Of a stretch of 64,000 nt of DNA, positions 1-55,784 are shown in pieces (within the stretch, counting starts at the first letter, position 1; every line of letters begins with the position of its first letter). A program made the translations under genes and the position numbers. Source of the stretch: Isoetes taiwanensis. Its lineage: Eukaryota > Streptophyta > Lycopodiopsida > Isoetales > Isoetaceae. The notes under the pieces were generated by a model, which worked only from the letters and a program-made list of their open reading frames with translations, had not been told where the DNA came from and made no database searches. The stretch covers positions 4,276,571-4,340,570 of the forward strand of contig JAJEKV010000059.1 in assembly GCA_021234155.1 (NCBI GenBank), in the 5' to 3' direction.

Positions 1-1043
1 ACAATGAAACTAGAGGCACTTATACAATCAAAAATCGCATCGATCCGAGACATCGGATCGCCATTCTAGAATGGGACGAGCATGCATGTCGTGCATGCAT
101 GCGGGCTGCGCATGCCCGTTTTGGTTGGGAGTTCGCTATTTCAGCGTGTTTACAAGATCCACATCTCATGGGCGCTTCCTCTTCTCTCAGCAGTACCTTA
201 TTCTCTTTGAATTGTTTCCGGTGCGGGGAGGGGCTTCTTCTGCCTGGTTTAACCAATTTGGCGTTTCTTTCTTGCTATCCTTTTAGGCCTTTGGCCTCGT
301 CCCGTGACCTTCGGCCCCTCGATCCTAGTTTGTAAGGAAGTTCTCTGGTAGTCGGGCGGTTTGTTGGTTTCTTGCGAGTCCCATTCTAGAATCGCATCGA
401 TCCGAGACATCGGATCGCCATTCTAGAATGGGACGAGCATGCATGTCGTGCATGCATGCGGGCGGCGCATGCCCGTTTTGGTTGGGAGTTCGCTATTTCA
501 GGCGCGTTTCTGCATCCACATCTCATCGGCGCTTCCTCTTCTCTCAGCAGTACCTTATTCTCTTTGAACCCACCCTCCCCCCCTTCTTTGTTTATTGTAT
601 TTTGCACAAGTTTCTGTTTATCATGTTTTTCTTCCACCCCCTGGGTGATGCTTTTTTTCCACCCCCTGGGTGATGCTATTCTCTGGTATGTTTATGTTGT
701 CTCGTTTGTTGTGTTGGTGATGTGCAGGTACAGGTTGGCGAGCGGCATCTGTTTCGACTTCTCCATGCGGGGGTTTTTGGGAGCGATTCTATGCCTTTAC
801 GTTTGTCTAAGCCCTTGCGAAGGCTTATCACTAGGGTTTTTCCTCGAAAACCCGAAAGGGCGGGGTTTTTTAATCCCGGTGATAAGCTTTCGGCAGGTAC
901 ATCAGCCACTCATCTATTAGCATTGTATTTTTTTTGGGGTCCAAATGATATAATTGGATTTTCCCTTTATTTTTCGTGGGCAGTTCGCATGTGTGCGGCT
1001 ACCCACTGTCCACCATTGGTTTCTTGCGAGTCCCATTCTAGAA
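1..1043 (+). repeat. Composite 1-kb dispersed repeat, copy 1
   Basis: Two partial tandem units (from about 35 and from about 392) begin alike, with TCGATCCGAGACATCGGATC followed by TTCTAGAATGGGAC, and then diverge after about 175 bp. Both units end with GTCCCATTCTAGAA (378-391 and 1030-1043), the reverse complement of the 14-mer near each start (64-77, 421-434). A second copy with the same two-unit order lies at about 55785-56795, so the whole composite is the repeating entity. It contains a strong stem-loop at 815-900. The short open frames inside it have no recognisable product. The class is unknown; a SINE-like or other non-autonomous element is possible. Confidence 0.75.
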
Positions 1044-1059
1044 ATGATAATAAGATATT

Positions 1060-1240
1060 TCAATCTGTCACGGGAGGTGGCTCTTCCCAGTCCACAGGAC
1101 TCTCATCCCCCTTAGGCTCTGTCTCTTGCGAGGCCACAACACCAGAGACGCCTGCTTCTGATTCCAATGCTAATGGTACAGGCGGTTTCTCGGGCACAGG
1201 CAACACAGGCTCCAGGTCCACAAACTCCACCTCCTCATCT
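1060..1240 (-). CDS. Displaced C-terminal tail of the methyltransferase
   Basis: Removing 1241-4225 and one CATCT copy makes the frame from 4226 continue without a break into 1240 and on to TGA at 1060-1062. The tail is acidic and Pro-rich (begins DEEVEFVDLEPVLPVPEKP, ends DWEEPPPVTD). The clean frame across the insertion shows that the LTR element landed in an exon that was still open. Confidence 0.8.
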
Positions 1241-1595
1241 TGTTAGTTTGAGTTCTTGGCGTGCACCTTGCAGCAGCAGTCTATGACCGCCGGATGCTAC
1301 AAGGCTGCCATGCTCATGATCACAAAACAAGAACAAGACAAACAAATATGAACAAAGAATGAGGGAAACGTGGCCAAGTGAGGCTCTCCAAATTTGAGAT
1401 AAACCTGCGTACAAATGAAGAGGCTCCGGTCTAATATAGTGTAGACCGCAAATCTGAGCCGTACATCTAACTAAATCTAATCCCTACACTTATGTTAACC
1501 TAATCATGCCAAGTGTCAGTCTGCCACCACTGACACCTAACATGTGCATGCACCTAACATGTGCATGCACAATGTTAACCACTAGGTGGTTAACA
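1241..1595 (-). repeat. 3' LTR
   Basis: 355 bp, apparently identical to 3871-4225. Its minus-strand start carries GTTAACCACCTAGTGGTTAAC, a near-perfect terminal palindrome. Direct copies of CATGTGCATGCAC occur inside. Confidence 0.93.
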
Positions 1596-3870
1596 CTGCC
1601 TCCCCCTAAAAGTTTTTAGCACGAAAACATGTACAGACTTTTATAAGACAAGTCTGACAATTACAACATGGTGCCAAAAATGAAGGGTGAAAATAATGGT
1701 AATGGTTGGGTTGTGTCGCCGAAAAATATCTTCGTGAATGCGTCGATGACGAATAAGATCCGAATGAATGTCGATGGAGAACATGGATCATAGGAACTTT
1801 GGGCCAAAAAAACATGAAGACCATCCCCTTATATAATGGGTAAGTCTATTTTAACAAATATGGCCCAAAATGTCACTTAAAAACAATTAGGGGTCTTCAA
1901 AAATGTAAACACCAAGAAAGCTTTCCCCGTGATCAGCCATAGAAGAGCGTGGCTATGCGTGATGATAGCTTGTGCAGAGCGTGGATCTTGGGCTAAAAGC
2001 ATGGCCATAAGCATGGGCGTGAGCGTGGGAGCATAAAAGCGTGGCTGGAGCGTGGACTTGGCATGGGCGTGCGTGAGATTGAGGAAGGTGACAAGAGCGT
2101 GGCTTTTGCGTGACAAAGCGTGGGTTGGCGTGGGTTTATTGTTACTAAGCATGGCCCGTGAAAGCAAAAAGGCATGAAGCGCTGGATCGTGGATCGTGGG
2201 GCGTGGACCGTGGGAAGAAAACTGGAGCGTAAGCGTGGGCGTGGAGCGTGGGCGTGGGGCCCCTTAGCGTGACGCCTTAAATCCCGTGAGTTGAACGTGA
2301 GCAGGGTTGACCCACGGCGTCACCCGTGATCGGCCTGCATAATGAGGGCTGAGACCCTAAAAAGTTCGAACCCTAAAATGGTTTTGCGGCGGCTAGGCAT
2401 GGCGGTGAAGCTCTCCGGGCTGCCGAGATATACTGCTGTTGCTATTTCCAGAAAATAGGGTGTCGAATGAAGCTTAATATTTGCCTTGAAATGTGCATGC
2501 TAAAGAGAGATCTGCAGAAGGGGGATTCTGATATGGTGCCGAAATTGAATCTGAAAGGGATTTGATCTGGAATAGCAGAGAATAGTTACTATATTTGCAT
2601 GTTTCTGCAGGATAGACGGCCGGATGTTGACAATGGGAAGGATGATTTGATGTTTTTCCTGCAGAGCGAACCTGGTGCTTGCTTGCTGATTTGAATAGAT
2701 AGGCATTTGTTGCATAGTAGGAATAAACAGATGATAATGAAAAATGTGCTGCAGGGTTTCATGCAAGTCTCAAATAGAGCGGCAGGGCAGAAATCTGAAT
2801 GCTTTGCTTGTAAGGCGTGACTTGATCTGCTCCAAAGATTCTCGATAAATTCTGCTAACCCAGTGTATCGGATGCAGGTACAGATATGGATTCGTTGCTG
2901 GTGAAGAAGAGATGGGGGCGAGCCGCAGAGCTGGCCCTTGTAAAGAATTCAAGAAGGCATACGAAGTTGAGGCCGAAATATAACTCCCCAAGATGATGAT
3001 GCTTTATTGAAAAAATCATCGTTTGCTTCTCTCGTGATGTGCAGACTGAAGGTATGCCAGAGGCGAATTCCTGAGATGCGGGAATGATATCTGGAAGTCC
3101 TGAAATGCTTGATGCAGGTACTAATAGATGCTGGAGAAGACATGCTGCATACAACGTGAAGAACAACTCTGATGCTACGAGGTAAAGAACAACTCTGATG
3201 CTTGCTGGTTTGAATATGCAGGGACGAGTTTTTTTTTGCAGATGAACGACACAAAGAACCAAATAACTCTCCCTTGAGAGATCTGTTCTGATAATGGAGT
3301 GTGAACCATAAGGGAGGGCTAGCCAAAGTGCTGGCCCTCTGCCAAATAATTTAAAAAAGAAAGCTTCGTGAAAAGCACTAGATTACTGATATGCCCATCA
3401 TGGGATGTGGTACAGAATGATTTTTTTTTTGTTTTTTTGGTTGTGCAAAGTGCACAAACTGGCAGATAAACAGAGATAGCAGAAAAAGAACAAGAAGGAT
3501 AATCATTTTTTTGATAGTTTTGCAGCAGATAGAAGATAACACGTGATTTTCCTGATATGTTTGGCAGAAAAGGAGTGCTGTCACCACTCCAAAGACCCTT
3601 GACTGTAATACTGAGCTTGCTGCACCATAAAAAAACAGAGTTTTGAAAACTTCATAACTAGACTAATTGCAAAGGAAAGGATTTGACAAAGGGGCCTCCA
3701 GCCGGACCATTTCAACAATTGGTTGGGCCAAATAAGGGAGTGGAAAGGGTTGAGAGTAATATACAAGGAGTATTCAAGAACTGATGATGATGATGAGAGC
3801 AGCAAGAACAACAGCAAGACAGCAAGGCTGAAGAAAGTGATCACGAGCGAACCCGGCATAACGGCGCCAG
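1596..3870 (-). other. Non-coding interior of the LTR element
   Basis: There is no long open frame on either strand. Part 1930-2300 is dense in GCGTGG/AGCGTGG-type motifs. Part 2480-3200 has repeated short phrases ending TGCAGGTA or TGCAG. I recognise no captured gene. Confidence 0.7.
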
Positions 3871-4225
3871 TGTTAGTTTGAGTTCTTGGCGTGCACCTTG
3901 CAGCAGCAGTCTATGACCGCCGGATGCTACAAGGCTGCCATGCTCATGATCACAAAACAAGAACAAGACAAACAAATATGAACAAAGAATGAGGGAAACG
4001 TGGCCAAGTGAGGCTCTCCAAATTTGAGATAAACCTGCGTACAAATGAAGAGGCTCCGGTCTAATATAGTGTAGACCGCAAATCTGAGCCGTACATCTAA
4101 CTAAATCTAATCCCTACACTTATGTTAACCTAATCATGCCAAGTGTCAGTCTGCCACCACTGACACCTAACATGTGCATGCACCTAACATGTGCATGCAC
4201 AATGTTAACCACTAGGTGGTTAACA
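3871..4225 (-). repeat. 5' LTR
   Basis: 355 bp, apparently identical to 1241-1595 and adjacent to the primer-binding site at 3870-3848. It truncates the methyltransferase frame at 4225. Confidence 0.93.
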
Positions 4226-4734
4226 CATCTTTTCTCCCCGTAATTGGAGGCTGGATTTCTGTATAAGTGCCTTTAACATCGCCAGCACCATTCTTTGCTC
4301 CCAGTTCCTCATTTTCATCAGGAAAGGATTCACAGGAGCTTATCCTGGTCCTGATGAAACTTATTTTATCTGGGTCTATATCGACAGAGACAACATTGCG
4401 CCCCTGCTTAAGGGCGCAAATTGCTGTGGTGCCTGTTCCAGAAAAGGCATCCAAAATCCAGTCTCCCGGGCGAGAAAACCACTGTATTAAATTATTAATT
4501 AGCCGTTGTGGCTTCTGATAATGGGACACCACAGCGCCTTGTCTCTGTGGGTCTCTTAACTTTTGCAAAACAGCCGGGAAATGAAAAGCATTGCAGGGAG
4601 GAGTCTTCTTATTCTGCGTATTGAAATGAGCCATGGTTTTTTTGGTGTCCGCGCTGTAAAAATCTATATGGAAATGCTCAAAACAGCTTACTAAGCGCGG
4701 ACCACCACCATGTCCCTTGACGTTCATCTTTAGC
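4226..4734 (-). CDS. Methyltransferase C-terminal exon (motifs X and I)
   Basis: The acceptor TTTGGCAG precedes 4734. Conserved parts are SHYQKPQRLINNLIQWFSRP (motif X and the helix before motif I), GDWILDAFSGTGTT (SAM-binding motif I) and VVSVDIDPDKISFIRTRI (motif II). Spacing matches beta-class enzymes, in which motif I follows motif IV. The frame runs into the LTR at 4225 and stops within it. The junction with the upstream exon is off by one nucleotide in this copy. The catalytic residues look intact, but the gene as assembled is not. Confidence 0.85.
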
Positions 4735-4804
4735 CTGCCAAACAATGCAACAATTAAAAATTAGTAGATAGAAAACAATGAAAATAAGTTAGCCCAGTGG
4801 TGTG

Positions 4805-5024
4805 GCGGTATAAGTTTATACCATGGTTGCCTTGCTGTATAAATTTATACCACGGTACCATGCCGTATAAATTTATACGAAGGTTGCCTTGCTATATAAA
4901 TTTATACCACGGTACCATGCCGTATAAATTTATACGAAGGTTGCCTTGCTGTATAAAGTTATACCACCGTTGCTCCAGCTGTATAAATTTAAACCTTAAG
5001 GCAACTGTGGTATAACTTTATACC
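4805..5024. repeat. Palindrome cluster 1 (GGTATAAATTTATACC), in an intron
   Basis: About eight exact or near copies of TATAAATTTATA with GG/CC or CG ends lie between methyltransferase exons 5068-5497 and 4226-4734. Part of the cluster is a tandem duplication of about 58 bp pairing two palindromes with spacers ACGGTACCATGC and GAAGGTTGCCTTGCT. Variants include TATAAGTTTATA and TATAACTTTATA. Confidence 0.9.
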
Positions 5025-5067
5025 ATGGAGTTACAGTAAAAAGAAAAGCAACGAATTTAAAGCTTAC

Positions 5068-5497
5068 CAAACTCAGTTTTTGAAGCCGGCGTTACAGACC
5101 GCTCCCATGTAAGCACCGACATCGTCTACAGGTCGGAATGAAAAATGATAACCCTCCAGTTTGTAGATATCGTGACTTCCTTTAAACCGTCCAAAAAAGC
5201 ACGGACTTGCACGTGCGTGAAAGCCTCGTCGTCGAAGGCGCTATCTTTAATTTTAAAGCCATAAGGAATATCTGCAATGCACAATGTAAAATTTTGCTTG
5301 TCCAAAAGAGTCCCCAGCCTGGTGCAATCACCCTGAACGACCCTGTACAAGCAGTCCTGACCAAAAGTTGTAAATCTCTCATAGCTAGTGTCAAAACTGC
5401 TAGTGCCGACTTCTTTTCCCTGTTCAATGGCCTTCAGTCTCTGCCTCTCCTCTTTGGCCCTACGAACCAGGTTTAAAAATAGCCCTTTCTTCTTGTT
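5068..5497 (-). CDS. Methyltransferase N-terminal exon (motif IV)
   Basis: The acceptor TTCTTACAG precedes 5497. The frame opens NKKKGLFLNLVRRAKEERQR, then GDCTRL, FTLCIADIPYGFKIKD and WRVIIFHSDL. GDCxxL before xDxPYG is the usual layout of N6-adenine or N4-cytosine methyltransferases, with DIPY as the catalytic DPPY-like tetrad. An in-frame TAG at 5126-5128 is followed by about 19 more open codons (MSVLTWERSV...) to the donor at 5062-5067. The stop is therefore probably a mutation or a consensus error, not the natural end. Confidence 0.8.
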
Positions 5498-5557
5498 CTG
5501 TAAGAAAACAATGAGACAAAGGCACGAAGACATAACATATTTTTACGCAAAACTTAC

Positions 5558-5697
5558 CCAAAAACCGGGTTAATTAAGCTGTTCTCTCGATTATACTATC
5601 TGTGGTACAAGTTGGGTAAAGAAGCTTGCACTCCTCCCAGTCTTCTAGGTTTAGTTGCTTCATTAACTCGGCCTGGCTGGTGACAATGTCTTTCTGA
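5558..5697 (-). CDS. Linker exon with premature stop
   Basis: The acceptor CTGTGCAG precedes 5697, and the exon joins in phase to the one ending at 5767. It reads QKDIVTSQAELMKQLNLEDW, then a Cys-containing segment, and meets TAA at 5574-5576, sixteen bases before the donor GTAAGTTTTG. A stop so close to a good donor, followed by the methyltransferase exon, suggests a former continuous frame. Alternatively this is the true end of a separate ParB protein. Confidence 0.5.
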
Positions 5698-5766
5698 CTG
5701 CACAGGTAAAAATGTTGTAAGACAAAGTAAGGGAAAGAAGAACACGGCATAGCAAATGAGGCTTAC

Positions 5767-6002
5767 GTCTTAGCTTCCTTAGCCATTTCGTCTAGAGTGA
5801 ATTCCTTGGCCACAACTTTCTCTAAGAGTCGCACAAAAATTTCTTTGCTTTTTAGACCCTGTAGCTGCGTCCAGTGTACAATGCTCATATTTTTTTGTTT
5901 TGCTTCACCACTTTTTTTTGGTTTTTTTCCTGCGGAGCTAGCTTGTTCTTTAAGCTCGCCATCCTCAAACATACAAAAAATTCTTTCTTGAAGATCCCAC
6001 AC
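5767..6002 (-). CDS. Linker exon between ParB-like and methyltransferase domains
   Basis: The acceptor TTAACAG precedes 6002 and joins in phase 0 to the exon ending at 6385. The exon reads VWDLQERIFCMFEDGELKEQ, then a Lys-rich run, then IVHWTQLQGLKSKEIF and LLEKVVAKEFTLDEMAKEAK, and ends at donor GTAAGC (5761-5766). It is charged and helix-rich, with no domain I recognise. A helix of the LDEMAKEAK type resembles the short HTH-like segment that often follows ParB N domains, but this is weak. Confidence 0.6.
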
Positions 6003-6069
6003 CTGTTAATGGTCAATGTCAAGTAGTTTAGTGTTGATTACAGTCTAATTGCGCACCGTGACTAGGCAC

Positions 6070-6312
6070 GGTATAAATTTATACCAAAACAGGGCTCGGT
6101 ATAAATTTATACCGTATACCGCACCTGGTCGCGGTATAGACCAGGCGCGGTATAAATTTATACCGGGACCTGGGCGCGGTATAAATTTATACCACGACCA
6201 GGCACGGTATAAATTTATACCGTGCCTAGGCGCGATATAAATTTATACCGTGACCTGAACCTGTGTCAATTTTAACATGGTGCGGGCTTCCATTGTTCGT
6301 ATAAATTTATAA
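6070..6312. repeat. Palindrome cluster 2, in an intron
   Basis: About eight copies of GTATAAATTTATAC lie between the exons ending at 6385 and starting at 6002. Spacers are GC-rich and themselves partly palindromic (GACCTGGGCGCG, CGTGCCTAGGCGCG). Most copies keep both flanking GG/CC pairs. Confidence 0.9.
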
Positions 6313-6384
6313 AACTCGAGGCTAATAAACACTTCAAACCACGCTAAACAAACTAAGAAAGACTAAATTAAAATTTTTACTTAC

Positions 6385-7537
6385 TCGTCCATCTCGGAAA
6401 GCAAGCTGGAAGTAATTGTCGTACTGTTTTACAGCCATTATAGGCTTCTTATCTGAATCATAACTGAGGCAGCATTCTGTCACACAGGCTTCTCGAAGCT
6501 CTTGGAGTTTGTTCTTTTGTTTTTTAAAGTCTTCTCCATGCGTTTGTTTGAACTCCACGTACTCTCGGTGCATAAAGCGGATCTTGTCTATCAGGCTCAT
6601 TTTTAATCTGAAGTCATTGTCTAGATTGTGACTTACGGCAATGACTTTTGCTTCTTCGTCTGTTAGCCCCACGTAGATATGTGCTTCCATGCTCTTCCAG
6701 ACTTCATTACGGGTTTCTTCTTTTGATAGTTCCTTTCTTGCTTTATAACTATGTGTGCCTCCAAGAACATAATAAGTGTAATCTTCGAAGTCGGCCTTTC
6801 TGTAATCTTTAAGTTGGGTGACCTGACTTCTGTCTACCATCACAACTAGTGGCGACACATGCGCATGAGGATTTCTTCTCATTCTTTGCTTAAGAATAGC
6901 CACATGTGCCGCGTACAACTTCCTTACCTGAAGCAGTCTGACCCCATCTTCATTTTTTGGTGGTCTCTTAATCGTGCTCAGCGTCAAAGAAATGGTTTGT
7001 TTAAGGAGTTTGGTCTCATTAACCCTCTTTAAAATTGCACTTGACTTATCTGAGGGCCGCACAACAATATCTGCTCCAGGAGCCTTTTGAAGCGCTTCTG
7101 CTGACTCCTCTATAGTCAAGGCCTTTGTGGTTCTTGACTTTTTTTTGGTAGGAGGCTGTGTATCTACTACCAATGCTTGCCTCTTACCCTTCCCCCTTAT
7201 CACCACCTCTTCCTCCTCTTCTTCTTCTTTTTCAACCTCTTCATCTTCCTTCTCCACATCTTCCTTAGCACGGGGGTACCAAAAACCTTTTGTCAAAACC
7301 TTTTCGTCACATAGTGTCACTGAGGACAAAATGCCAACTATGTCCTGTAATGTAGGATAAATTAGGAAGCTGACGGTATAAATTTATACGGTAAAGCAAC
7401 GAAGACCAACTTACATAGCCATGCTTGTAATTGTCTGCAATGTAATCGTGGACGTCTTTAGGTTTGCACATGCTTATGCGCAGCATTGTACTGTTTAAAA
7501 TGTAAACAACGTCCCCGTCGTCATTTAGACAGTTCAT
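6385..7537 (-). CDS. ParB/sulfiredoxin-like domain exons
   Basis: An ATG at 7537 opens a frame that runs to the donor at 7415 (GGCTAT then GTAAGT) and continues in frame after the acceptor at 7344 down to the donor at 6385 (GACGA then GTAAGTAAA). The product begins MNCLNDDGDVVYILN, then has a Glu/Asp-Lys-rich stretch and a basic segment (RGKGKRQ, TKKKSRTT) that could be a nuclear localisation signal. A globular region follows with LLQVRKLYAAHVAILKQRM, VSPLVVMVDRS, YYVLGGTHSYKARKEL and IAVSHNLDNDFRLKMS. GGTHSYKA matches the GxHRxxA-type box of ParB N-terminal domains, and the preceding strand pattern fits. In ParB proteins this fold binds or hydrolyses nucleotide or nicks DNA; here the activity is unknown. 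Confidence 0.75.
7375..7391. repeat. Single intronic palindrome copy
   Basis: One copy of GGTATAAATTTATACGG lies in the short intron between exons 7415-7778 and 6385-7344. Confidence 0.85.
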
Positions 7538-7538
7538 T

Positions 7539-7778
7539 ATATCTCATCTTCATTTTCTGTAGCAGTGAGGCTTGTCATTTCGCCAGCGAGGTAATAATCA
7601 TCAACCTTGAACTTTCCCCTCCCTGACTGATAACACAAATACAGGTATGCCTCAGTGGGATAGCGCTCTCTCGCTCCCCTGTGTACGTACCATGTTTGAC
7701 CTTTCAGTTCATAGGTATTTATCTTTGGTGTTGGTGGCTGTAATGGTTGGCCTTTGTGTTTGATAATAATCTTCTTGA
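7539..7778 (-). CDS. Exon 2 reading frame of the ParB/methyltransferase gene
   Basis: The acceptor TTTCAG lies at 7779-7784. About 79 codons stay open from there, with a basic start (KKIIIKHKG), WYVHRG, YLYLCYQ and FKVDDYYLAGE, ending DEI-TAA. The stop overlaps the ATG of the next frame as TAATG. I recognise no domain. The frame does not follow from ATGGCCAC at 8400 without a shift, so an exon may be missing or a base lost. It may once have been continuous with the next frame. Confidence 0.45.
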
Positions 7779-8015
7779 CTGAAACGGCAAAAAAAACACA
7801 TTTTCACATCAGAAAAATAGTTTTTTTAGACTATCTTAAACACTTTAACTGTAATAAAAGTGGCCTAAAGAACCTCAAATTCGTGCTGTTTTAACCCTTT
7901 TTCCATGTAAAATGGCCTTAAAACACAACACTATTATTCAACTAGTATGGTTTTGGATTTTGCTTTAGCCACACCACACCCTTTAGAAAATATAAACCTT
8001 GTCGGTTGTCCGCTC

Positions 8016-8334
8016 GTATAAATTTATACCAAAAGTGTTTACGAACTGTTTGTTTTAACGACTATGGTCTCCCTCTGTTTAAATTTATCTGAGAGAGGGT
8101 TCTCAAGAACAAGTATAAATTTATACCGCTGGTGCTCGGAAGCAGATAAATTTATACCGGATTAGAATATTCTTGATATAAATTTATACGCTCCGAGCAT
8201 GAGCGGTATAAATTTATACCGTTGCATATACCGCAAGTGTTCTGCAACGGTATAAATTTATACCGTCTGAGCACCAGCGGTATAAATTTATACCGTTGCA
8301 GAACCCTCTCAGTTTAAATTTACACAGAGGGACC
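8016..8334. repeat. Palindrome cluster 3 inside a nested inverted repeat
   Basis: About eight copies lie upstream of the ParB exons. They are organised symmetrically: 8066-8100 pairs with 8301-8334 (CCCTCTG...GAGAGGGTTCT), 8126-8140 pairs with 8265-8280 (CCGCTGGTGCTC), and CCGTTGCA pairs with TGCAACGG further in. Confidence 0.88.
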
Positions 8335-8400
8335 TTAGGCTCAACAGACTAAAAGAGATGCGGAACTAAAAAAGTACGCATTAGAGACTTACGTGGCCAT

Positions 8401-8596
8401 GACCGTATGGATTCGCTTATAGCTGTTCGGCAGAGCAAATTAGGGGGAGTATATAAGGCGCAGGCGAGCGGCTTCGACTCCGAACAGCGTATGGAGAAAA
8501 TAGAACGACCGGCGCCGAGCTTAAGTACCTCTGCTCAGAGCCTTTTCGTATAGCGGTTCTCCATAAATTCTCCTATACGAATATCTGTAAGTTTTC
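8401..8596. promoter_or_regulatory. Shared divergent promoter region
   Basis: The region separates the minus-strand ATG (8400) from the plus-strand gene (8789). TATATAAGG at 8450-8458 is a good plus-strand TATA box; the reverse complement CCTTATATAC could serve the minus gene about 50 bp from its ATG. Palindrome clusters lie on both sides. The promoter role is inferred from position. Confidence 0.5.
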
Positions 8597-8767
8597 GTAT
8601 AAATTTATACCTTTTGCGTTCACCGTTGCCCTTCTCTGTATAAATTTATACCATCTCTTTATACCACCTCTGTAAATTTTTTTACCATATTTGTATAAAT
8701 TTATACCAACTCTGTATAAATTTATACCAAGTGTCGTTCCTGCTTCTGTGTCGTATAAATTTATACC
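8597..8767. repeat. Palindrome cluster 4, upstream of the transposase start
   Basis: Five full copies of GTATAAATTTATAC plus degenerate ones (TCTTTATACC) end 21 bp before the ATG at 8789. They lie between the presumed transcription start and the coding region. Confidence 0.88.
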
Positions 8768-9290
8768 GTCTCACGCTACTTGCTGATTATGGCTAGAGAG
8801 AAAAGAGCTGCAGAGCCTCCATCTCCTGTTCGCAGGCTTCCTCCTCCGATGGTTTTCACACCTCCTCGAATGTCCCCAGGTAGTAGCCTCGAAACTTCCG
8901 CCTCCGATATTCAAAGCCCCGGTTGGGGGTTTACTCGCCACCCCCACCACCACCACCACATCGGCTTCCACCACGATTCGGTTCACTCCACCACAGCCTG
9001 CTCCTGAACGTCGTTTGCCCCCACCAATGCATTTTACTCCACCACAGCCTTCAGAGCTCAGACTCCCTCTTCCAGTTCATTTTATTTCGTCTCCCATAGT
9101 CCAGCGTAGACCGCTTCCCCGAAGGCAAATCACACCAACTCCATCCATTTCGCTAGTTGATACTACAATAAGTAGAAGCAGTCAGTGCCAAGCAACTCCT
9201 GTATTCTACGACACTTCAGGAGCTGGTTAACTACGTCACCAACCTTGACTACTTTTTCCTAGAGAGAGGGCTAGCAGCTCCCCCCAAGAC

Positions 9291-10118
9291 TTGCCCACAC
9301 CAAACCTCTCAGCATCTACTAGTACACCATCTGTTGCTCCCGTGTCAGACGAAGAAACACCTCATGTTGATCTCTTAGACGAGGACCTACCAAAGCAACA
9401 AGACTCTATGTTCGAATTCAAAGCTCCTGCAAGTAAAAACCTTAAGCGAAACTTACACAAGAAAGCATGTACATCCCAAAGAAGAAAGAAACTTATGGAC
9501 GAGGCTCACTTGAGGGCAACACATACAAAGCACTGTTGTTCTCAGCGTTATTTGCTTAAGATTGGACTAAAGGAATTGAGGTTGATTCGTGATAGTTACA
9601 GTTCAATGACTCTGCTAGACCAAAGGGGCTACTTGGCCTTCAATATTACGCCAGATTATGGTGAAAGGTTTACTTATACAGCTGGTGGCCACACCGTCTG
9701 TCAAGCAGCCTTTCAATTGATTCATGCTTTAGGCAGCAGACGACTTGACCGCCTGAAGAAAAGGCTTGACAAGAATCCAGGCATTAATGACTACTGCCAT
9801 TCAGGAAGTATATCCAAAATTCATGCCCTTCAATGTGTTTCCTGGATGGAAGGTTTCTTTAAGGAGTCTTGCGAGAAACTCCCTAACAGCCCGATGTACC
9901 ACTTGAGTGACAACTTCACGAAACGTGAAGTCTACAACAATTATAAGGACATGTGTGTTGAGGCTGGAGAACACCATGTATGCTACTCTTACTTCACTGT
10001 GCTCTGGAAAAAAGAGTTTTCTCGCATGTCCATTCCTAGAAAGCACCGGATGTCTGTTTGTGCTACATGCTCTGAATTAAAAGCTCAGAGACAAAATGCA
10101 AAGACACTTCACACTAAA
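9291..10118 (+). CDS. Transposase N-terminal and DNA-binding exon
   Basis: The frame is open upstream of 9291 (SSSPQD...). It carries an acidic patch (DEETPHVDLLDEDLP), a basic stretch (KNLKRNLHKKACTSQRRKK), and a central domain with SQRYLLKIGLKELRLIRDSY. A Cys pair (SVCATCSEL), probably zinc-binding, precedes the donor. The normal frame beyond 10118 is intron. Confidence 0.7.
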
Positions 10119-10324
10119 AGTAAGCTTCCACAACGTGTTCTTGCTTAGTTCTACTTGATAGTAGGTTCTTTTTTGAAGATACTTTCATTTCAGATGCATT
10201 GAAAGAGAAACTGAACAAGCACAGAGAACAACAATCTTTGGAAAGGAGAAAATTGACAAAACATAGGAAGAAAGCACTGGAACAACCACTCAACTACATA
10301 CTAGAAGAAGACCACCCTACCACA

Positions 10325-10775
10325 TTTTGTCAATGTGCCTAAGGATGCTCCTGAAGAAGATTTCATACACCTACATGTTGTTGGTGCTATGGTATTTAAT
10401 GGGAAACTATCTTGCAAGGCATTTTTGAACTATCCAAACATTCATGCTGATCCAAATCTCACTATCACAATATTGAATAAGCTTCTTTCCAATCTAGAAC
10501 ATATACCACCGGTTCTATATCTTCAGCTAGACAACACGACAAGAGAAAATAAGAATCAGGCATTGTTTGCTTACTGTGCTATGCTAGTTGAGAAACAAAT
10601 CTTCAAGAAGGTGAAGATTGGTCTCCTGCTTGTTGGTCATACACACGATCAAATTGATCAGATGTTCAGTAGGTTCTCTAAACATCTTGCTCAAAAAAAA
10701 GCTCTCAGCTTACCAGCAATGATTGAGGTTATCCAAGATTCCTACAATCCTCGAGTTATTAGAAGAAACTTATGA
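10325..10775 (+). CDS. Transposase catalytic segment
   Basis: Ordered motifs HLHVVGAMVFNGK, YLQLDNTTRENKNQALFAYC and GLLLVGHTHDQIDQMFSRFS give the Asp, His and Asp residues expected of this family's catalytic core. The frame starts off-register from the exon 10194-10340 by one base and ends at TGA near 10773. After that the homologous reading continues in another frame (EETYDFKEWIFRRDQLGHC). Confidence 0.75.
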
Positions 10776-10861
10776 TTTCAAGGAATGGATTTTTCGGAGA
10801 GATCAATTAGGCCACTGTGCTATTGAGCCCTTGAGAAACATTACATTTCAGCATTAGATCA

Positions 10862-11885
10862 AATTCTCACTTGTAGATGGCAAGGCTATCTTACAAGGAA
10901 AGAAATATGCCACATCCTTGCCGTGGCAGCCAGCAACTGGTATTCAATTAATTCGCACCATCCCCAATACTAGTTCTATGCTCTCTGCAGAGCAAATGCC
11001 TCTAAAAAGCTTGAAAGAAATCACAATGAGTAAAAAGGAGGGAAGAGCATTTGACTCAAACAAATCATTGGATTATATTGAGACAAGTATTCAGTCATGC
11101 TCTAACCACTTTGGGGAGGCAGATGCTTTATGGTGGCCTCAGCTCGGCAACGTGACATGTTACAAGCTTCATTACAAGGTCGAAGACCAGTTATATTCAA
11201 CTGGCCATCTAGGCAAACTCTCCCTATGCAAATTGAGAATCAAGAAGAACATGTAGAGCTAATGGCTAGCTCAGATGAAGATGATAGAGTCATGTACACC
11301 GCCCCGGACCATACGGCACAACAAGTTGCTTTCGGGTATCCTGGTTCGATCCTCTGAGATTCGAAAAGGAATGCTCATAGCTGTCGGTGATAATGATGAA
11401 TCTGGGAAGCCATTACGGCTAGCTAGAGTCTTGGAGGTAACAAGAGAGGATGGAATTCCCACTCAATTAAAAAGTGCACTTGGATGAGAACAAATGTTGC
11501 CAATGCTTTCAGTGGGAGTTATACTTTGGAGATGGTAAAAACAGGAGTGGGAAAGAGAGCAAAGTCCAAAGCAAACACTGATGTCATAGATATAGCTGAA
11601 GTAAAGGTTCTTGCATATGACTTTGTTCTGACTGTTGCTAATAAGTTACGTATGGTCACTCAAACTTTAATAAGGTCGGCATGTGGATTAGACAAACAAC
11701 CTAGAAAGGTGACCAAAAAAGATGATGATGAAGACTCACTTGTAGACAGTGAGGAAGAAGATCGTTCGAGTACACCCAGTTCTGAGAGTGAAGGTGAGGA
11801 TGAAGGCTCAAGTGATCAAGGATTGAATGAGTCTGAGGATGCCATGCATCCTAATATTGCTGCAAAATGTAAGTTTGTCCGATGA
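10862..11885 (+). CDS. Transposase C-terminal region, broken into three frames
   Basis: Open pieces are 10862-11256 (GKKYATSLPWQPATGIQLIR..., ALWWPQLGNVTCYKLHYK), 11180-11357 (FNWPSRQTLPMQIENQEEH), 11330-11487 (RKGMLIAVGDNDESGKPLRL) and 11484-11885 (GSYTLEMVKTGVGKR, VLAYDFVLTVANKLRMVTQT). An Asp/Glu/Ser-rich tail of about 50 residues follows. Together they look like one C-terminal domain interrupted by indels. Confidence 0.6.
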
Positions 11886-12452
11886 CACGAACATGTACAG
11901 AACAGAAACTGCAGGTGATGAGGTTTTGTCAAAATGTCCTATATTTTTGACAATTTTGTTCATAATTTTGTAAAATTTTCACAAGCTTTGAATATATCAC
12001 TTGTTTGTCACTCTAGTACCCTTGCTATTCTTTCTTATTGCCCATTTTTTGCTACACTTTATATAAGTACCTATTTTTTGTTCTAAACTAGGAGGATGAA
12101 AATAGCTATTTAAAATTTTTGCATAGAAGTTATGTTCAATCAACCCCTCAAAAAGGGTACCTAAATTAGCTAAATTGTCACACCTGTCATGAAAAAACCT
12201 TAAAAATGGACTTTTTAAGGGAATTTTAGGGGATCTTTCAAAGATTCCTTTTGAAGTGCGTTTGGAGCAAATAAGTGTGTTTCAATTTAAACTTTGTTCT
12301 TAGCCACATTCTGCAATAGTCATACTTTGCCTTTAATCGGAACTATGGAATAGAGTGATGCTACAGGACCAGACATCTGCAATATGTAGAACTGGTCATT
12401 TGCGTTGACAAAAAAAACTAACTTCTTGGAATGAAAATATCCAGAAGATTCA
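11886..12452. other. AT-rich spacer after the transposase
   Basis: No coding signal. The right end of the large transposon should lie somewhere here, before the kinase fragment, but I could not find terminal inverted repeats or a target duplication. Confidence 0.4.
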
Positions 12453-17195: not shown

Positions 17196-18045
17196 TCTTG
17201 GTGCAGCTATGGCCCCGAGGATTATCGTGGCGCTTTTCGTGATATCAAAGATAAAACATCCCGAGCTGCAATTGCTGAAGCTAAGAGGAAGGATCCTTCC
17301 TACTCAAAGAGGTGTAGAGGACCGAGTATTAGACGAGGTTGCAGGTGCCATTTTCAGGTCAAACAGTTGTATTTGAAGCCCGAGATATGTAAGATTACAT
17401 TCTATGAGATGAGACATATTGACAGTAAAGGCATGGTCTCCGCCATGGAATGGAGGATCCGCAATGCTTTAGAACAAGGCATGATGTAGCTCCATGGTTA
17501 TCAAAGGGTAAGAAGACTTGGGCATACCAACGGTTGATCCATAACCACACTCCCCCGGGAAGTCTATCGTCAACACCAGGAGCAATGGTCCTTAAAGCAT
17601 AAGATGCATCCCAATGCTCCCAAGAATAGAGATGAATTCCTGGCTATGGATGATCTGTATAACTTGTCCCGCAAGGTCGCTGCTGACACATGGATGCTAC
17701 ACAAGGATGTGGCCACAAGTGTGAGGATGTGGGTTGACTTACACCGGGAGGATGTGTTCTTGTATCGGGGAGGGTGTTCCTTTTATTTTGGGCATCATCA
17801 CCCCCCTTTCAAATGAAGATATTGTTGGAACATGGAAGGGGAATCTTGTAGCCATGGACTCAACCTTCAAGACCAATGATCATTGTTACGACTTGTATAC
17901 CACCGCTAGTATATGACACACATGGAAATGGTGTCCCCTGTTGTTTGGGTTCTAACCTCTAGTGCCACCTGGGAAGACATCCACCCTTGGCTGATGGCAA
18001 TGAAGAACCAGTATACATAGAGAGGACCCATCATGGGAATCTTCA

Positions 18046-19365
18046 TGTTTCATTGTGGATGATGCACAGGCTGAGATAAATGCCTTGAAGGACGTGTGGC
18101 CTACAACCAATATTCAGTTGTGTATCTGGCATGTGAGAAGAAGCTGGATGAAGATGCTCTTGAAGCGTGTCAAGAATAAGAAGGTGAGAGGGGAAAAGTT
18201 TAGGGACCTCGGGCATATTATGTATGGCACTAGTGTGGAATGTGATCCAAGAAGGACGGCTGATTATGTGGAGGCTTGTCGTAAGGAGGCATTGAGAAAA
18301 CTGGATGAATTCAAGGAAAAGTACAAGGTGTGGAAAAGGGTTTGGACCAATAACATCACACATTGGATAATTGCGACAAGGATGTATCCTCACGCCAACC
18401 AGGAGACAAATGCTGGCATAGAGTCTTACCATGGCAACATGAAGAGAAGATTAGGGGTCTCTAAGTATGCTTTGAGAGGAAGGCGAATTGATTGGCTGAT
18501 TTACATGTTGACAAACATATTACAAACCCACATGTCATATAACAGGTTCATGAAGGACGAGGGTTTTAAAACCAACAAGAGACAGGAACACATAGTTGAG
18601 GCAGCCATTATAGGTGCAAGAGACATTCCTGATGAAGCTGTTAGGTGGCTGAATTTCAAGGAAGGCAGGGCCGAGGTGTGGAGTCAGAACATGGATACTT
18701 GGGATGATAACAGGGAGGCATTGCCTTATTTAGTGGATGTGGCACATGAGCATTGGTCCACTTGTGATTGTCCATGGGGTATGGAAGGGAATATGTGCAA
18801 GCACCAAGTTAAGGTAATCCGAATGATGGCCAAGTACAACGAGGAAGATATTTTAAGGTTTTGTGGAACACTACATGGATCTCAGGCTGGCGGGTTGTCG
18901 AACTTAAGGCGCTTTGCCGAAGCATATGATGATATCTTGCCTTCTTCAGAAGAAGGGCCATGCAATGGTCTTGCACTTGACGAAGAAATTATGGACCCAA
19001 GCATTGCTGGTTGTTTGAGTCAAAACCCAAAGGTTAAGGTACTAGCGAGCATAGATGACACAATGCATGCTATAAAGGAGACCATAGCTATGAGGCCCCA
19101 ACTATTGACAGAAGCTAGGTTCCTTTTGGCTGAACTTAGCAACAAGTTGGCAAGGCTAAGTGATAGCAAAACTAACAACACCAAGGCCCCTGATCTAGCC
19201 ATGGTTGAAGACTTTAGTGGGAATACCATTGTTAGGCCAATCCCTTTTGTGGAGAGCCGTAAGAAGAGGAAGAAGGCTAGTGCACTTAGTGTTTTCGCGA
19301 AGGAATGCGAAAACCACATTACAAAATGTGAAGGTATTGCATTTATTCCCATAGATACTTTTTGA
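18046..19365 (+). CDS. MULE transposase, open C-terminal exon
   Basis: About 440 open codons from the second catalytic Asp to the stop. The Asp, Glu and SWIM Cys/His residues are all present. After the SWIM finger comes a charged tail with KKRKKA, possibly nuclear targeting, ending IPIDTF. Confidence 0.88.
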   Translation, partial: CFIVDDAQAEINALKDVWPTTNIQLCIWHVRRSWMKMLLKRVKNKKVRGEKFRDLGHIMYGTSVECDPRRTADYVEACRKEALRKLDEFKEKYKVWKRVWTNNITHWIIATRMYPHANQETNAGIESYHGNMKRRLGVSKYALRGRRIDWLIYMLTNILQTHMSYNRFMKDEGFKTNKRQEHIVEAAIIGARDIPDEAVRWLNFKEGRAEVWSQNMDTWDDNREALPYLVDVAHEHWSTCDCPWGMEGNMCKHQVKVIRMMAKYNEEDILRFCGTLHGSQAGGLSNLRRFAEAYDDILPSSEEGPCNGLALDEEIMDPSIAGCLSQNPKVKVLASIDDTMHAIKETIAMRPQLLTEARFLLAELSNKLARLSDSKTNNTKAPDLAMVEDFSGNTIVRPIPFVESRKKRKKASALSVFAKECENHITKCEGIAFIPIDTF

Positions 19366-19689
19366 AACGATTCATATTCTTATCTCTCAAATTCATGTCA
19401 TGCCATTCTAGGTACAAATGGATGCACTGCAGAAGCGCCACATTAATGTCATCAATGTTTGGACTATTAGGTGATGATGCCATGTTGCTTTTAGGTGAAA
19501 GGGTGACACAGATCTGCTATCAATATATTTCTGAATGTTATGGTATCCTGTTTTGCATACATACTCTAATCCATGGTCGTTTATAGGCCTCATAATCCTT
19601 TATTTGCCTTATAATACTTGGTGACTTCATATTTCCGGCTTTATTTTGGCCCATGTTCATGTGTTATTTTTTTGGCTTCAGAGCAATAT

Positions 19690-20535
19690 CGTAATCTAAT
19701 ATGGTATTTCTGATCTTGTTCCTTTGTATTTCGGACAAAATTTTGGTATTTCCGGGTCATATTCATGGTATTTCGCCCAACACCTTGGTCTTTCCGCCAA
19801 CACAATGGTATTTCCGCCAACACCATGGTCTTTCCGCCAACACCATGGTATTTCGCCAACATTCGGTATTCCGCCAACACCATGGTATTTCGGCGGATGC
19901 CTTGGTATTTCCGCCAACACCATGGTATTTCGGCCAATACCCGTATTTTCGGCCGGATACTTTGGTATTTTTCGGCCGGATACCATGGTATTTTCGGCCA
20001 ATACCTTGGTATTTACGGCCGGATACCATGGTATTTCCGCCAACACCTTGGTATTTCGGCTAGATACTTTGGTATTTCCGCCCAAACCCCGCTACTATTT
20101 CTAGCCAATACCTTGGTTTTATGAAATACCACGGTATACGGCCCGGATACCATGGTATTTCCGCCAATGCCTTGGTATTTCGGCTAGTACCTTGGTATTT
20201 CCGCCAATACCTTGGTATTTCGGCAGTTTGGTATTTCGGCCAAATACCTTGGTATTTACGGCCAATACCTTGGTATTTCTTGCCAAAACACGCTACTATT
20301 TCCGGCCAATACCTTGGTTTTTATGAAATACCACGGTATTTTCGGCCGATACCATGGTATTTCGGCCAATACCTTGGTATTTCGGCCAATACCTTGGTAT
20401 TTCGCGGCGGTTGGTATTTCGGCCAATACCTTGGTATTTCGGCCGATTTGGTATTTCGGCCAAATACCTTGGTATTTACGGCGAAATGTTTATTACTCGG
20501 AACAATTGCAATTAAAGCCATGGTATTTCGGTAGC
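19690..20535 (+). repeat. Minisatellite array 1 in the MULE
   Basis: About 40 diverged units of roughly 20 bp, type CCAATACCTTGGTATTTCGG or CCAACACCATGGTATTTCCG. The array lies just beyond the 3' end of the Ulp1-like gene, whose last codons read into it. Each unit has a small palindrome around CCATGG or CCWTGG. Confidence 0.92.
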
Positions 20536-23343: not shown

Positions 23344-23589
23344 TGTCGCCGGAATCGATCCACACTAGCGCACAGCAATAGAACCCTGTTTTTTCGAAAG
23401 AGCTACAACAGCCCTGTTTTTTTGAAAGAGTGCTCTGGTACAACAGTTAGGTGTTTTTGGGCAGGACAACTATTGTCAGATCATTAGATACGCCCCAATT
23501 TAAAAATCAGATGATGATAGTTCTGACAGGCCAGATGACAGAAATTGACATATACCAGAATGTTTGAGAATATCATAAATAAAGCTTTC

Positions 23590-24085
23590 ACGGCCCTGAA
23601 ATACCATGGTATAAGGCCAGAAATACCATTGGTATATGGCCAGAGATACCATGATATATGGCCTGAAATACCATGGTGTGTTCCTAGTAATAACATATTC
23701 AATTGCATGGTCTATGTCTGGAAATACCTTGGTCTATGTCTGGAAATACCATGGTCTATGTCTAGAAATACCATGGTACCATGGCAAGAAATACCATGGT
23801 CTATGGCAAGAAATACCATGGGCTATGTATGTCTGGAAATACCATGGTACCATGGCAAGAAATACCAAGGCAAGAAATACAATGGTCTATGGCAAGAAAT
23901 ACCATGGTCTATGTCTGGAAATACCATGGTCTATGTCTGGAAATACCATGGTCTATGGCAAGAAATACCATGGTACCATGGCAAGAAATACCATGGTCTA
24001 TGGCAAGAAATACCATGGGCTATGTATGTCTGGAAATACCATGGTGCCATGGCAAGAAATACCATAGCAAGAAATACAATGGTCT
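23590..24085 (+). repeat. Minisatellite array 2 in the MULE, opposite orientation
   Basis: About 20 units of the type GAAATACCATGGTCTATGGCAA with variants (ATGTCTGG, GTACCATGGCAA). The core GAAATACCATGG is the reverse complement of the array 1 core CCATGGTATTTC. The two arrays therefore bracket the Ulp1-like gene as an imperfect inverted pair. Confidence 0.92.
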
Positions 24086-24317
24086 AGTCAAAGTTTTATA
24101 GTTCTATTGATGTAAAACATTTTATGTTGTCACAGCCTTAGGACTATGTACATTTTTAGGTGGCAATAGTTGTATTGCTCTAAAACAACTTATGTTGTGT
24201 TAACCTCAGTGGTCATCGCCAGAAATACCATGTTATTCATGGACAGAAATACCATGTCACTCGGGCAAGAAATACCATGTTACCCATGGCGGAAAAACCA
24301 TGGCCAGTTCGTTCCCG

Positions 24318-28553: not shown

Positions 28554-29030
28554 ATGGAGCAAGGCATATGCAATCCACATTCTCCAAATGAGATACAAGT
28601 TTCGAGATTATCAGAAGACACTGGTGGAGGTAGTAGAGCTGAAGTAATTATGAAAATGGGAAGGTTTTTTTTATTGCTGCTTCAAATGAAACAATTATGT
28701 GTTAGTGACGATTCCTACCAATTGTATGTGAGGGCTATAGCTTGGTTGAGAGCAGTAATGACTCTTTTCTCATCATTTGGTTCATCCATTACTAGAGCAA
28801 ACACTCCAAGGTGGTTTTGGATGTATGACAGAGGCATTGGATTGGATCAGGTGCTACTGCAGACCTATACTGATTTAGATTTCAAAAAGAGGTTGCGAAT
28901 CTCTAAAGCAACATTCCAGTACTTATGCCACGAGTTAGGGCCGCTAATGGTAAGACAAGATACCAAGTTCAGGACAACCTTAAAAGGGGGCATGGAATGC
29001 AAACGTTTGCATTGCATCTACATAGATTAA
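28554..29030 (+). pseudogene. PIF/Harbinger transposase N-terminal fragment, copy 1
   Basis: 158 codons with WFWMYDRGIG, DLDFKKRLRISKATFQYLCH, ELGPLMVRQDTKFRTTL. In HARBI1/PIF proteins this helical block (FRMSRATFxYLCxELGP...QDTxFR) precedes the DDE core. Here the frame ends right after FRTTL, and no catalytic D-D-E region follows in the remaining 290 bp of the unit. The fragment is therefore truncated and cannot transpose by itself. Confidence 0.85.
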
Positions 29031-32300: not shown

Positions 32301-34431
32301 TGAAAAAATTCTAGAGTTTGGATGGATCGTTGAAAACCATCCAAAGCTGTAATCCTGCACAAATTTGATTGGTTTCTTCAGTTTCTCTTCTTAATCGAAC
32401 ATGGAGCTGCTTTGGGCTCAAAAAGCAATATTGAATGAAAATAGAAAAGTTCTACAAAAAAGGAATAAATCATTTGTCCACATTAATTTTGGGCTAGTTA
32501 TGACTTTATGGCTATTATAGATAACTTTATGGAATCTCCTAAGTTAGCATCTATGGAAACATCCTGGGCTTCAAAGGAAAGTTGGGGAGGTTTCCATAGA
32601 AGAAAATGGGGGAGGTTTCCAGTCCTTGGGAGTCTAACCCAAATCAGGCGAATATAATTTGATCGGATCGTGATGGTATAAGAGAGGCATTTTAACAAAT
32701 GCAAAAAATAGAGGGGCACTTTGAAAATTATAAAAAAATAAAAAGCATTTTCACATTTTGATAAACCTGCATCCAATCCAATGGCCGAGTTGTGCCGAGG
32801 TAAACGGCCTAGATTTCAATCCAGACCCTCTCATCCTATTGGTTGGGGTTAATGGGCCAGTTTGTGCTTGCTTAGGGTGAAATCACACCACGCCCGTCCA
32901 AAATTAAATACTTAGAGCCATGTAAGAACTTCAGTGCAAAGATCGCCATTCTTTCTATGCAGTAACCTAAGAAGCTTAAGACTAGAAATCGTTAGTGGTT
33001 TGTCAACCTTACAAGTACACCTTGAGTGAAAAAGATCGCCATGGTTTCTATGCAGTAATTGAAATGCTTTAGACTAGTAACTTCAAATGCTTTAAACTAG
33101 ATAACGTTACTAGTTTATAAATGATAACAATGGGCGTAATGTGTTACAAAACCATGCGCATTTAGGAAAAACACTGTTACATCTAAGTTTGATAAACATA
33201 ACAGTGCTTAAGATAATAACCGATACTAGTTTATAAATGATAACAATAGGCGTAATGGGTTACAAAACCACGGACATTTAGGAAAAAAAGAATTACATCT
33301 AAGTTTGATAAACATAACAGTGCTTAAGACAATAACCGAAACACTTTGACCGATTAAATACTGTTGCTTTATTATACTAGGAAGGGAAAAGCATAAGAAA
33401 CCTTATTTTTTGGACGGGCCTCATCACACTATAGCATGCCTAAATTCAAAAAGTCATCTCCACGCAATCCTCCACGCAATCGGATGTAAATTGGCTGCAG
33501 CGGGGCTTCTTGTGGGCTTCTTCCGAATGCTCACGAATAGAGATTTTGCTTCGAGGAGATGATCTCAACAGGTAATTTCTTTCTCCTTGCAATTTATAAG
33601 TTTTAAGCCATTTTATCTTCTTGCATCATCCAAATCCAATTTACCGATTAGACATCACTTCTAGATGGAGCAAGGCATATGCAATCCACATTCTCCAAAT
33701 GAGATACAAGTTTGAGATTATCAAGAACACCGGTGGAGGTAGTAGAGCTGAAGTAATTATGAAAATGGGAAGGTTTTTATTATTGCTTCAAATGAAACAA
33801 TTATGTGTTAGTGACGATTCCTACCAATTGTATGTGAGGGCTATAGCTTGGTTGAGTGCAAGAATGACTCTTTTCTCATCATTTGGTTCATCCATTACTA
33901 GAGCAAACACTCCAAGGTGGTTTTGGATGTATGATGCAGAGGCATTGGATTGGATCGGGTGCTCTACTTGAGACCTATATGATTTAGATTTCAAAAAAAG
34001 AGGTTGCGAATCTCTAAAGCAACATTCCGATTACTTATGCCACGAGTTAGGGCGCTAATGGTAAGACAAGATACCAAGTTAGGGACAACCTTAAAGGGGG
34101 CATGGAATGCAAAACGTTTGCATTGCATCTACATAGATTAAGTTACATTATCTTCTCATTATGGTGCGTATGACTTTGATTTTTGTGGACTACTATAAAA
34201 GCTTTTTTTTTCTATGAATATAGGAAGATCATTTGGATAGAAGCGAAGCATTTGCTTTGTCACCAATCGCATAATCTCGTCACAAATGTTTTTATGGGAA
34301 CGTGTCTTTGTAATAACATATTCTTGGATGGAAGTTGTACTATAAGAAAAAGCCATTATAGCAAATTGATAATGTTAACCATTCCTTTATATTATTGTGA
34401 TCCTTAAAGCATTTGGACAATTGCCACACGC
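29319..34431 (+). repeat. 5.1-kb tandem unit, copy 2
   Basis: 5113 bp, collinear with copies 1 and 3. The junction ACACGC/CAGAAATACC joins the end of one unit to a point inside the MULE subterminal repeat. Confidence 0.95.
33665..34140 (+). pseudogene. PIF/Harbinger fragment, copy 2
   Basis: The same region as 28554-29030, but split by indels near 33715 and 33950 (stop after WIGCST). WFWMYDAEALDW and the downstream RISKATF part sit in different frames. Confidence 0.8.
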
Positions 34432-51900: not shown

Positions 51901-52099
51901 GGCGTAGCAAAGAGTGGCGGCGGCGGCGCATTGCGTCGGTGACCTCGGCGGTAGCCCGGCCTAAAAATCGCGAAGCTTGCCACCGGACCCGAGCTGCGGC
52001 ACCCCCTCGGCGACGGGCGTCCACGACTTGAGCGGTAGCTTTGCGGCGGGACTCTGTTGCATCGAGGTAAGATCGATTGACATACGGTAGTCCCCTTCA

Positions 52100-55780: not shown

Positions 55781-55784
55781 TCCC

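Follow-up and report, generated by a model that had tools for sequence, protein, structure and literature searches.

The stretch of DNA analysed here (the window) comprises 64,000 nucleotides of the genome of Isoetes taiwanensis (Lycopodiopsida; contig JAJEKV010000059.1, positions 4,276,571 to 4,340,570) and carries, at its beginning, one copy of a transposon with two genes placed head to head. The plus-strand gene encodes a protein with the domain of unknown function DUF7869, probably the transposase, and the minus-strand gene is predicted to encode a ParB-like region followed by a DNA methyltransferase of the N6_N4 type, with introns. An earlier note on this DNA had proposed that both genes form one mobile unit at 1060..11885. 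The unit was recovered, but the extent given was too short, the window copy running from 423 bases before the window to 12298 (ends mapped). Its features are listed below in window coordinates; splice sites and exon limits were predicted from the sequence and not from RNA.

423 bases upstream of the window, from contig position 4276148: left end and left inverted repeat of the transposon
1..12298, no strand: in-window part of the transposon copy, with two nested insertions inside and the target duplication CTTA at each side
~14..1069: nested repeat inserted into the transposon's left end, limits approximate
1063..1240, minus strand: last coding exon, 3' part, acidic tail, beyond the insertion of a long terminal repeat (LTR) retrotransposon
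1241..4225, minus strand: nested short LTR retrotransposon inside the last methyltransferase exon, probably non-autonomous
4226..4737, minus strand: last exon, 5' part, with presumed motif I DAFSGTGTT
4808..5023: intron array of 8 palindromes, spacing about 28-30 bp
5066..5497, minus strand: methyltransferase exon with presumed motif IV ADIPYG; in-frame stop after IFHSDL
5577..5698, minus strand: small exon (SQKDIVTSQAELMKQLNL...), low-coordinate splice donor tentative
5767..6002, minus strand: linker exon (VWDLQERIF...KEAKT)
6071..6312: intron array of 7 palindromes
6385..7344, minus strand: exon with the ParB-like region (YYVLGGTHSYKARKEL ... LTDEEAKVIAVSHNLDND)
7376..7389: single palindrome in a short intron
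7415..7779, minus strand: N-terminal exon, frameshifted in the window copy, in frame in 4/4 other measurable copies
8016..8325: palindrome array of the putative first intron (6 sites when one mismatch is allowed, 9 when three are)
8393..8400, minus strand: putative first exon (an ATG followed by a splice donor), out of frame with the next exon in the window copy
8450..8457, plus strand: putative TATA-like box ahead of the transposase gene
8597..8766: 5 palindromes in the transposase 5' leader
8789..11885, plus strand: transposase gene (DUF7869) with LQLDN (second Asp) and VGHTHDQID (third Asp)
12269..12298, minus strand: right terminal inverted repeat
12299..12302: target duplication CTTA, right copy, 4 bp

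The assembly scanned for further copies contains 1,658,258,908 bp in 1110 contigs, and four copies (A, B, C and D) were picked by their transposase exon. In A, B and D all the queried exons of the methyltransferase gene were matched, head to head with the transposase, and in copy C none of them was found within the fetched stretch. Homology between copies breaks off sharply at identical points, which are the terminal inverted repeats of about 30 bp (AACAARGTTTAAAWTGAAACGCACTTATTT). A 4-bp target duplication is present in all eight copies with both ends in view. In seven of them the pattern search found 27-29 of the 30 end bases identical together with the duplication (window copy CTTA, B ATAA, D CTTG, L037 AAAT, L172 ATAG, L175 GATT, L179 GGAA); the duplication of copy A (GTGT) was read separately, since an indel in its left repeat hides it from the end pattern. 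Terminal inverted repeats and a duplication of fixed length are the marks of class II cut-and-paste elements. Copies B and D measure 8.7 kb and 8.6 kb, and the right end has 1110 matches in the genome with at most two mismatches, against none for the reversed control.

The pairing of the genes recurs as well. The search with the transposase exon gave 137 scored matches from 4930 first-look candidates and that with the ParB exon 128 from 4151, which merged into 131 and 125 places, respectively. In 43 pairs the two exons are no more than 15 kb apart; 40 of these pairs stand head to head (window copy counted), 34 of the 40 at a distance of 1.7-2.5 kb, whereas 0.3 pairs would be expected by chance. 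This count is a lower bound, because only the best-scored places entered the lists, and it gives no estimate of the fraction of copies with both genes. The family is therefore a class II transposon, about 8.6 kb long, whose two genes are transcribed divergently, and the same order, the same inverted repeats and the 4-bp duplications make the two genes a single mobile unit. The expectation of the earlier note that full copies would disclose terminal repeats and target duplications is borne out, as is the co-occurrence of both genes with a palindrome that belongs to the unit; the reverse finding, genes never together at other loci, was not made.

The transposase had been described from its LQLDN and VGHTHDQID motifs, and this description holds: the protein matches DUF7869 (PF25273) with an E value of 6.5e-50 (169.8 bits, Pfam cut-off 26), which is its sole Pfam match, no Mutator-like element (MULE) model being matched. 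When the window copy, A and D were compared, three aspartate motifs were found in the order VVIDGMDQ, LQLDN and VGHTHDQID, the first in A and D, the window copy having lost that segment. A single-sequence AF2 model of the DUF7869 core gives the order b-b-a-b-a-b-a at a low pLDDT of 55.6, and Foldseek returned no match to it at E <= 0.001. We infer that the DUF7869 protein is a transposase of the DDD type that cuts at the inverted repeats. Target duplications of the Sola superfamily are 4 bp long, as they are here, and several other superfamilies share this length. Sola appears in a published classification (PMC4455052).

In the minus-strand gene the motifs GGTHSYKA, ADIPYG and DAFSGTGTT, also announced by the earlier note, were found in open reading frames, and the protein matches N6_N4_Mtase (PF01555) with an E value of 5.6e-15 (56.3 bits, Pfam cut-off 26.7). 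We take ADIPYG to be motif IV and DAFSGTGTT to be motif I, so that motif IV stands before motif I, and the catalytic DIPY is a variant of DPPY. ADIPYG is intact in 10 of 12 copies; of the other two, one carries Cys instead of Tyr and the other has an unread residue. Motif I appears as DAFSG(T/S)GTT in the nine copies read there. The in-frame stop of the window copy is absent from the 10 other copies with a readable exon end, which continue with QTMSVLKPM..AVCNAGFENCVW to the splice site; their read-through segment is IFHSDLQTMSVLKPM..AVCNAGFENCVW, one copy having MAAV for MGAV. The methyltransferase half resembles that of phage ParB-methylases (hhalign probability 96, E 1.5e-9, with 52 of 83 proteins used), and the ParB-like motifs YYVLGGTHSYKARKEL and LTDEEAKVIAVSHNLDND precede it in the correct order. 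Cellular prokaryotic relatives are distant (20-54% identity among the 80 listed of 229 loci, many of them short matches). A scan of viral contigs found one relative of the methyltransferase protein, L001, and none of the transposase.

The window copy of the transposon is dead. Its methyltransferase gene contains one in-frame stop and one frameshift, and its transposase gene frameshifts besides the missing first-Asp segment. The LTR retrotransposon within the methyltransferase gene is a recent insertion; its LTRs (1241-1595 and 3871-4225) are identical and it is bounded by a 5-bp duplication, CATCT. The repeat at 27-1018 is 82% identical to 55773-56718, and one copy of it interrupts the left end of the transposon.

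Among copies, both genes are under purifying selection, which is strong for the methyltransferase gene. For the latter, the medians are dN 0.052, dS 0.54 and dN/dS 0.10 (12 copies, 63 of 66 pairs, three being omitted for having too few codons); in the same five copies (window, A, B, D and C1018) dN/dS is 0.06-0.19 for the methyltransferase gene and 0.18-0.47 for the transposase. These final values are restricted to high-scoring segment pairs with 70% identity or more and to windows that match locally; this lowers dN of both genes and leaves parts of some copies unread (B 472 and D 380 of 831 positions). A first pass gave 0.10-0.14 for four methyltransferase-gene exons, 0.14 and 0.24 for the N-terminal pieces and 0.24-0.52 for the transposase pieces; its value of 0.38 for the last exon, with several stops, is probably due to wrong-frame tails. 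The methyltransferase has thus been maintained through rounds of transposition. The synonymous divergence of the methyltransferase half is 2.6-8.0 times that of the transposase half in 10/10 pairs of the same five copies. The non-coding parts lean the same way: the transposase-side 3' untranslated part differs by 2-12% and the first intron by 23-38%; few parts diverge as fast between copies as the first intron, the N-terminal exon and the promoter. The excess would be compatible with halves having been shuffled between lineages, and also with diversification under silencing.

The palindrome GTATAAATTTATAC occurs 19 times exactly and 27 times with at most one mismatch in the window, always between 4808 and 8753, whereas 50 Markov simulations gave a mean of 0.02 sites. 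All 27 sites are inside the transposon, in four predicted introns (8, 7, 1 and 6 sites, the 6-site outermost intron assuming the putative first exon) and in the 5' leader of the transposase (5 sites), and none is in a coding exon; neighbouring sites are often 28-30 bp apart. The palindrome had been said to fill the introns and the shared promoter, which is right for these four introns and the leader, but the short introns at ~5499-5563 and ~5700-5766 are empty, as are about 270 bp round the shared promoter, between the first-intron and leader arrays. Genome-wide, the 18-mer CGGTATAAATTTATACCG has 4415 places against 0 for its control. An array is present in the fetched flank of 25 of 30 transposase loci (window copy included), the other five having no site, and all ten palindrome clusters sampled elsewhere (C2, C4, C5, C7, C13, C16 twice, C17 twice and C23) belong to the transposon family by their coding exons or ends. 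Three of these carry coding exons as in full copies (L040, L173, L176), two are partial (L177, L178) and five (L037, L172, L174, L175, L179) are derivatives of about 2.2 kb that have lost the genes. Each derivative has one palindrome array between the transposon's ends, although for L174 the fetched stretch stops short of the left end, and remnants of the N-terminal exon in L037 and L179 were the sole coding matches in them. As these five keep their array, the array is retained when the genes are lost. The other four derivatives are 85-91% alike to L037. In a scan of viral contigs the palindrome appeared in 34 stretches with a single site each, which is why these are probably due to chance.

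The arrays also differ from the rest of the element in CpG content. The observed/expected CpG ratio has a median of 1.07 in arrays (0.56-1.33) and of 0.45 in the transposase exon (0.38-0.57), the array exceeding the exon in 25/25 loci, window copy included; palindromes and 4 bp at each side were masked, and only loci whose array has at least 5 sites were counted, 5 of 30 not qualifying. The GpC control gives 1.13 for arrays and 0.95 for the transposase exon. In the five derivatives the array ratio is 1.02-1.39, against 0.40-0.66 in their flanks. The ratio of CpG to non-CpG transitions (window copy, A and D) is 1.1 in arrays, 1.0 in the promoter and 2.0 and 2.2 in exons; it reaches 8.5 in the transposase-side 3' part, from 32 sites only. 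The arrays have retained their CpG and the transposase half has been depleted of it, as though the former were spared cytosine methylation.

These observations lead to a reading whose chances we would put as even: the second gene would be a sequence-specific anti-silencing module, comparable to VANC of the Arabidopsis VANDAL transposons and built on a phage-type N6/N4 methyltransferase. The ParB-like/methyltransferase protein would bind the palindrome arrays, probably as a dimer, and methylate A (or C) at or near them; its occupation of the arrays, the mark, or both, would shield arrays and promoter from the host's cytosine methylation and from silent chromatin, and both genes, as well as the derivatives carrying an array, would thereby stay mobile. 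Such a module would account for where the arrays lie and why derivatives keep them, for the selection acting on the enzyme, for the rapid divergence of non-coding parts and for the CpG pattern. Self-protection, control of transposition and partition had been suggested for the unit, and escape from silencing appears to be the best-supported role among them. A bolder version, which we advance tentatively as a possibility, is that a phage-type amino-methyltransferase was domesticated by a eukaryotic DNA transposon to write a self-mark at its own arrays, N6-methyladenine (6mA) or N4-methylcytosine (4mC), which would exclude silencing by host 5-methylcytosine (5mC) and label the copies and derivatives allowed to move, as a plant counterpart of the 'self' signature of restriction-modification systems.

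Several results weigh against the anti-silencing module. The ParB-like region has no Pfam match to PF02195/ParB, and no helix-turn-helix was identified by Pfam. Its hhalign scores against phage ParB are weak: a slice of 110 residues gives a probability of 15 (E 0.0018), the whole exon 3 (E 0.017) and a deeper profile 1 (E 0.049), beside E values of 0.38-0.64 for the other five targets with the same query and of 0.093 for a doubly reversed control. The Box II GxxR arginine is absent, GTHSYKA standing in its place in 11/11 copies read (D unread). As to the transitions, the derivatives show little contrast (1.35 against 1.67), and the CpG clock is noisy in this DNA, the ratio for a control repeat pair in the window being only 1.2; array turnover, promoter use or composition could also be the source of the CpG preservation. 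N6_N4 methyltransferases switch between 6mA and 4mC (PMC8885841), so that the product may be either. As for other searches with the ParB half, tblastn against phages gave one match at E 0.3, no convincing match was obtained in PDB and NCBIfam, and the single-sequence AF2 model of the exon (pLDDT 37) is uninformative. A survey of the fold reports that substitution of the Box II arginine abolished nucleotide binding (PMC12704722). The 'ParB' label of the earlier note thus has the motif register in its favour, with weak profile support and no Box II arginine, and for these reasons we name the region ParB-like and claim no nucleotide switch.

The same data can be arranged otherwise. In the first alternative, an unlikely one, the methyltransferase marks the element's own DNA, or the ParB-like part nicks it, and the transposase is limited to a given methylation or replication state, the arrays being enhancer or transpososome sites. 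Dam methylation governs the transposition of Tn10 and IS50 in this manner, and non-autonomous derivatives would have to keep arrays and ends, as they do, if mobility required them in cis; that the enzyme is under strong purifying selection agrees with this alternative too, but the arrays of full copies are internal, in introns and leader and not subterminal, and CpG preservation in arrays is not predicted by transposition control itself. Besides, a bacterial ParB-methylase is reported to have a non-specific nicking activity (PMC5512222). A rather improbable alternative is plain autoregulation, in which the second protein regulates the two divergent promoters via the palindromes and methylation is incidental or lost. 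Palindromes do flank the shared promoter on both sides and occur in introns, but most copies retain the catalytic motifs, the gene as a whole has a dN/dS of about 0.10, and arrays are still present in elements without any gene to be regulated.

Partition, in which the protein would load at the palindromes as at parS, spread and segregate an extrachromosomal form, is very improbable. The dense palindromic sites and the ParB-like motif order speak for it, whereas no ParA-like match was found among the six window proteins scanned with Pfam and we know of no circular form of the element; it was rejected on the missing Box II arginine, which together with the Pfam and hhalign results leaves this suggestion of the earlier note unsupported. 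Chance adjacency or recent bacterial contamination, for which only the prokaryotic type of the methyltransferase domain pleads, can practically be dismissed on the split exons shared by several copies, the copy number (4151 first-look ParB exon candidates in the same genome), the 40 head-to-head pairs, the common inverted repeats and the 20-54% identity to the 80 listed prokaryotic loci.

Some elements described before are comparable with the one proposed here. VANDALs carry a MULE-type transposase and VANC is not known to have a methyltransferase domain, whereas the Isoetes element encodes a DUF7869 protein and an N6_N4 methyltransferase, duplicates 4 bp of its target and has a palindromic motif, and its loss of 5mC is deduced from CpG content only. 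Fungal KDZ transposons carry TET/JBP genes and are also DNA transposons with a DNA-modifying enzyme, but this is an oxygenase of 5mC/T and their transposase is different. VANC attaches to motifs in the non-coding DNA of the transposon family that encodes it, where it reduces methylation (PMC5735166), and its target repeats vary between related elements (PMC5735166, PMC10398659). VANDAL and the Isoetes element are alike in being DNA transposons with an extra gene, with short motifs in introns and intergenic parts, often in tandem, and a local effect on CG at the motifs; the arrays of Isoetes likewise lie outside the coding sequence of the very element whose gene specifies the protein. The retrotransposons of dinoflagellates and charophytes described in PMC5890265 also encode their own DNA methyltransferase, but these are host-derived C5 enzymes for cytosine, whereas the Isoetes element is a DNA transposon with an amino-methyltransferase of phage or bacterial type and arrays of its own sites.

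With the ParB-methylases of phages and prophages (PMC12704722, PMC5512222; L001, L087, L089 and 80 IMG/VR loci) the protein shares the methyltransferase family and the order of both parts, but its gene has predicted introns, has lost the Box II arginine and resides in a eukaryotic transposon, and the gap between the ParB-like part and the methyltransferase is of ~250 residues, against roughly 75 in the phage protein L089. The bdelloid rotifer N4CMT is another bacterial-type N6_N4 methyltransferase in a eukaryote; it is a host gene that puts 4mC at transposons and certain tandem repeats and is not transposon-encoded (PMC8885841). The literature searched, with subscription journals, preprints and Repbase outside its scope, yielded no mention of DUF7869 and, in titles and abstract starts, no described element that joins ParB, an adenine methyltransferase and a transposase.

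Other features lie further along the window. A MULE-type transposase fragment is found at 18004-19365 (PF10551, E 5e-7, with a SWIM zinc finger match below threshold), and at 19640-20530 and 23540-24090 there are long runs of a short unit that translate into ...ISANTMVFRPIPWYF... or similar in several frames. By eye, the open reading frames at 48690-52550 look like a non-LTR retrotransposon. The related open reading frames at 28554-29030 and 33600-33971 presumably resemble plant Harbinger/IS4-like nucleases.

Selfish elements with their own DNA-modifying enzyme were already known (PMC5890265). What appears to be new here is a DNA transposon that would join the idea of site-specific anti-silencing to a methyltransferase of its own, of phage type, with arrays of one palindrome; at the same time, DUF7869 is given a mobile-element context, with its ends and the length of its duplication. 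If the anti-silencing module is real, it would offer a natural means, guided by sequence, of writing 6mA or 4mC into plant DNA, and the disputed functional 6mA of plants would become directly testable at thousands of defined sites.

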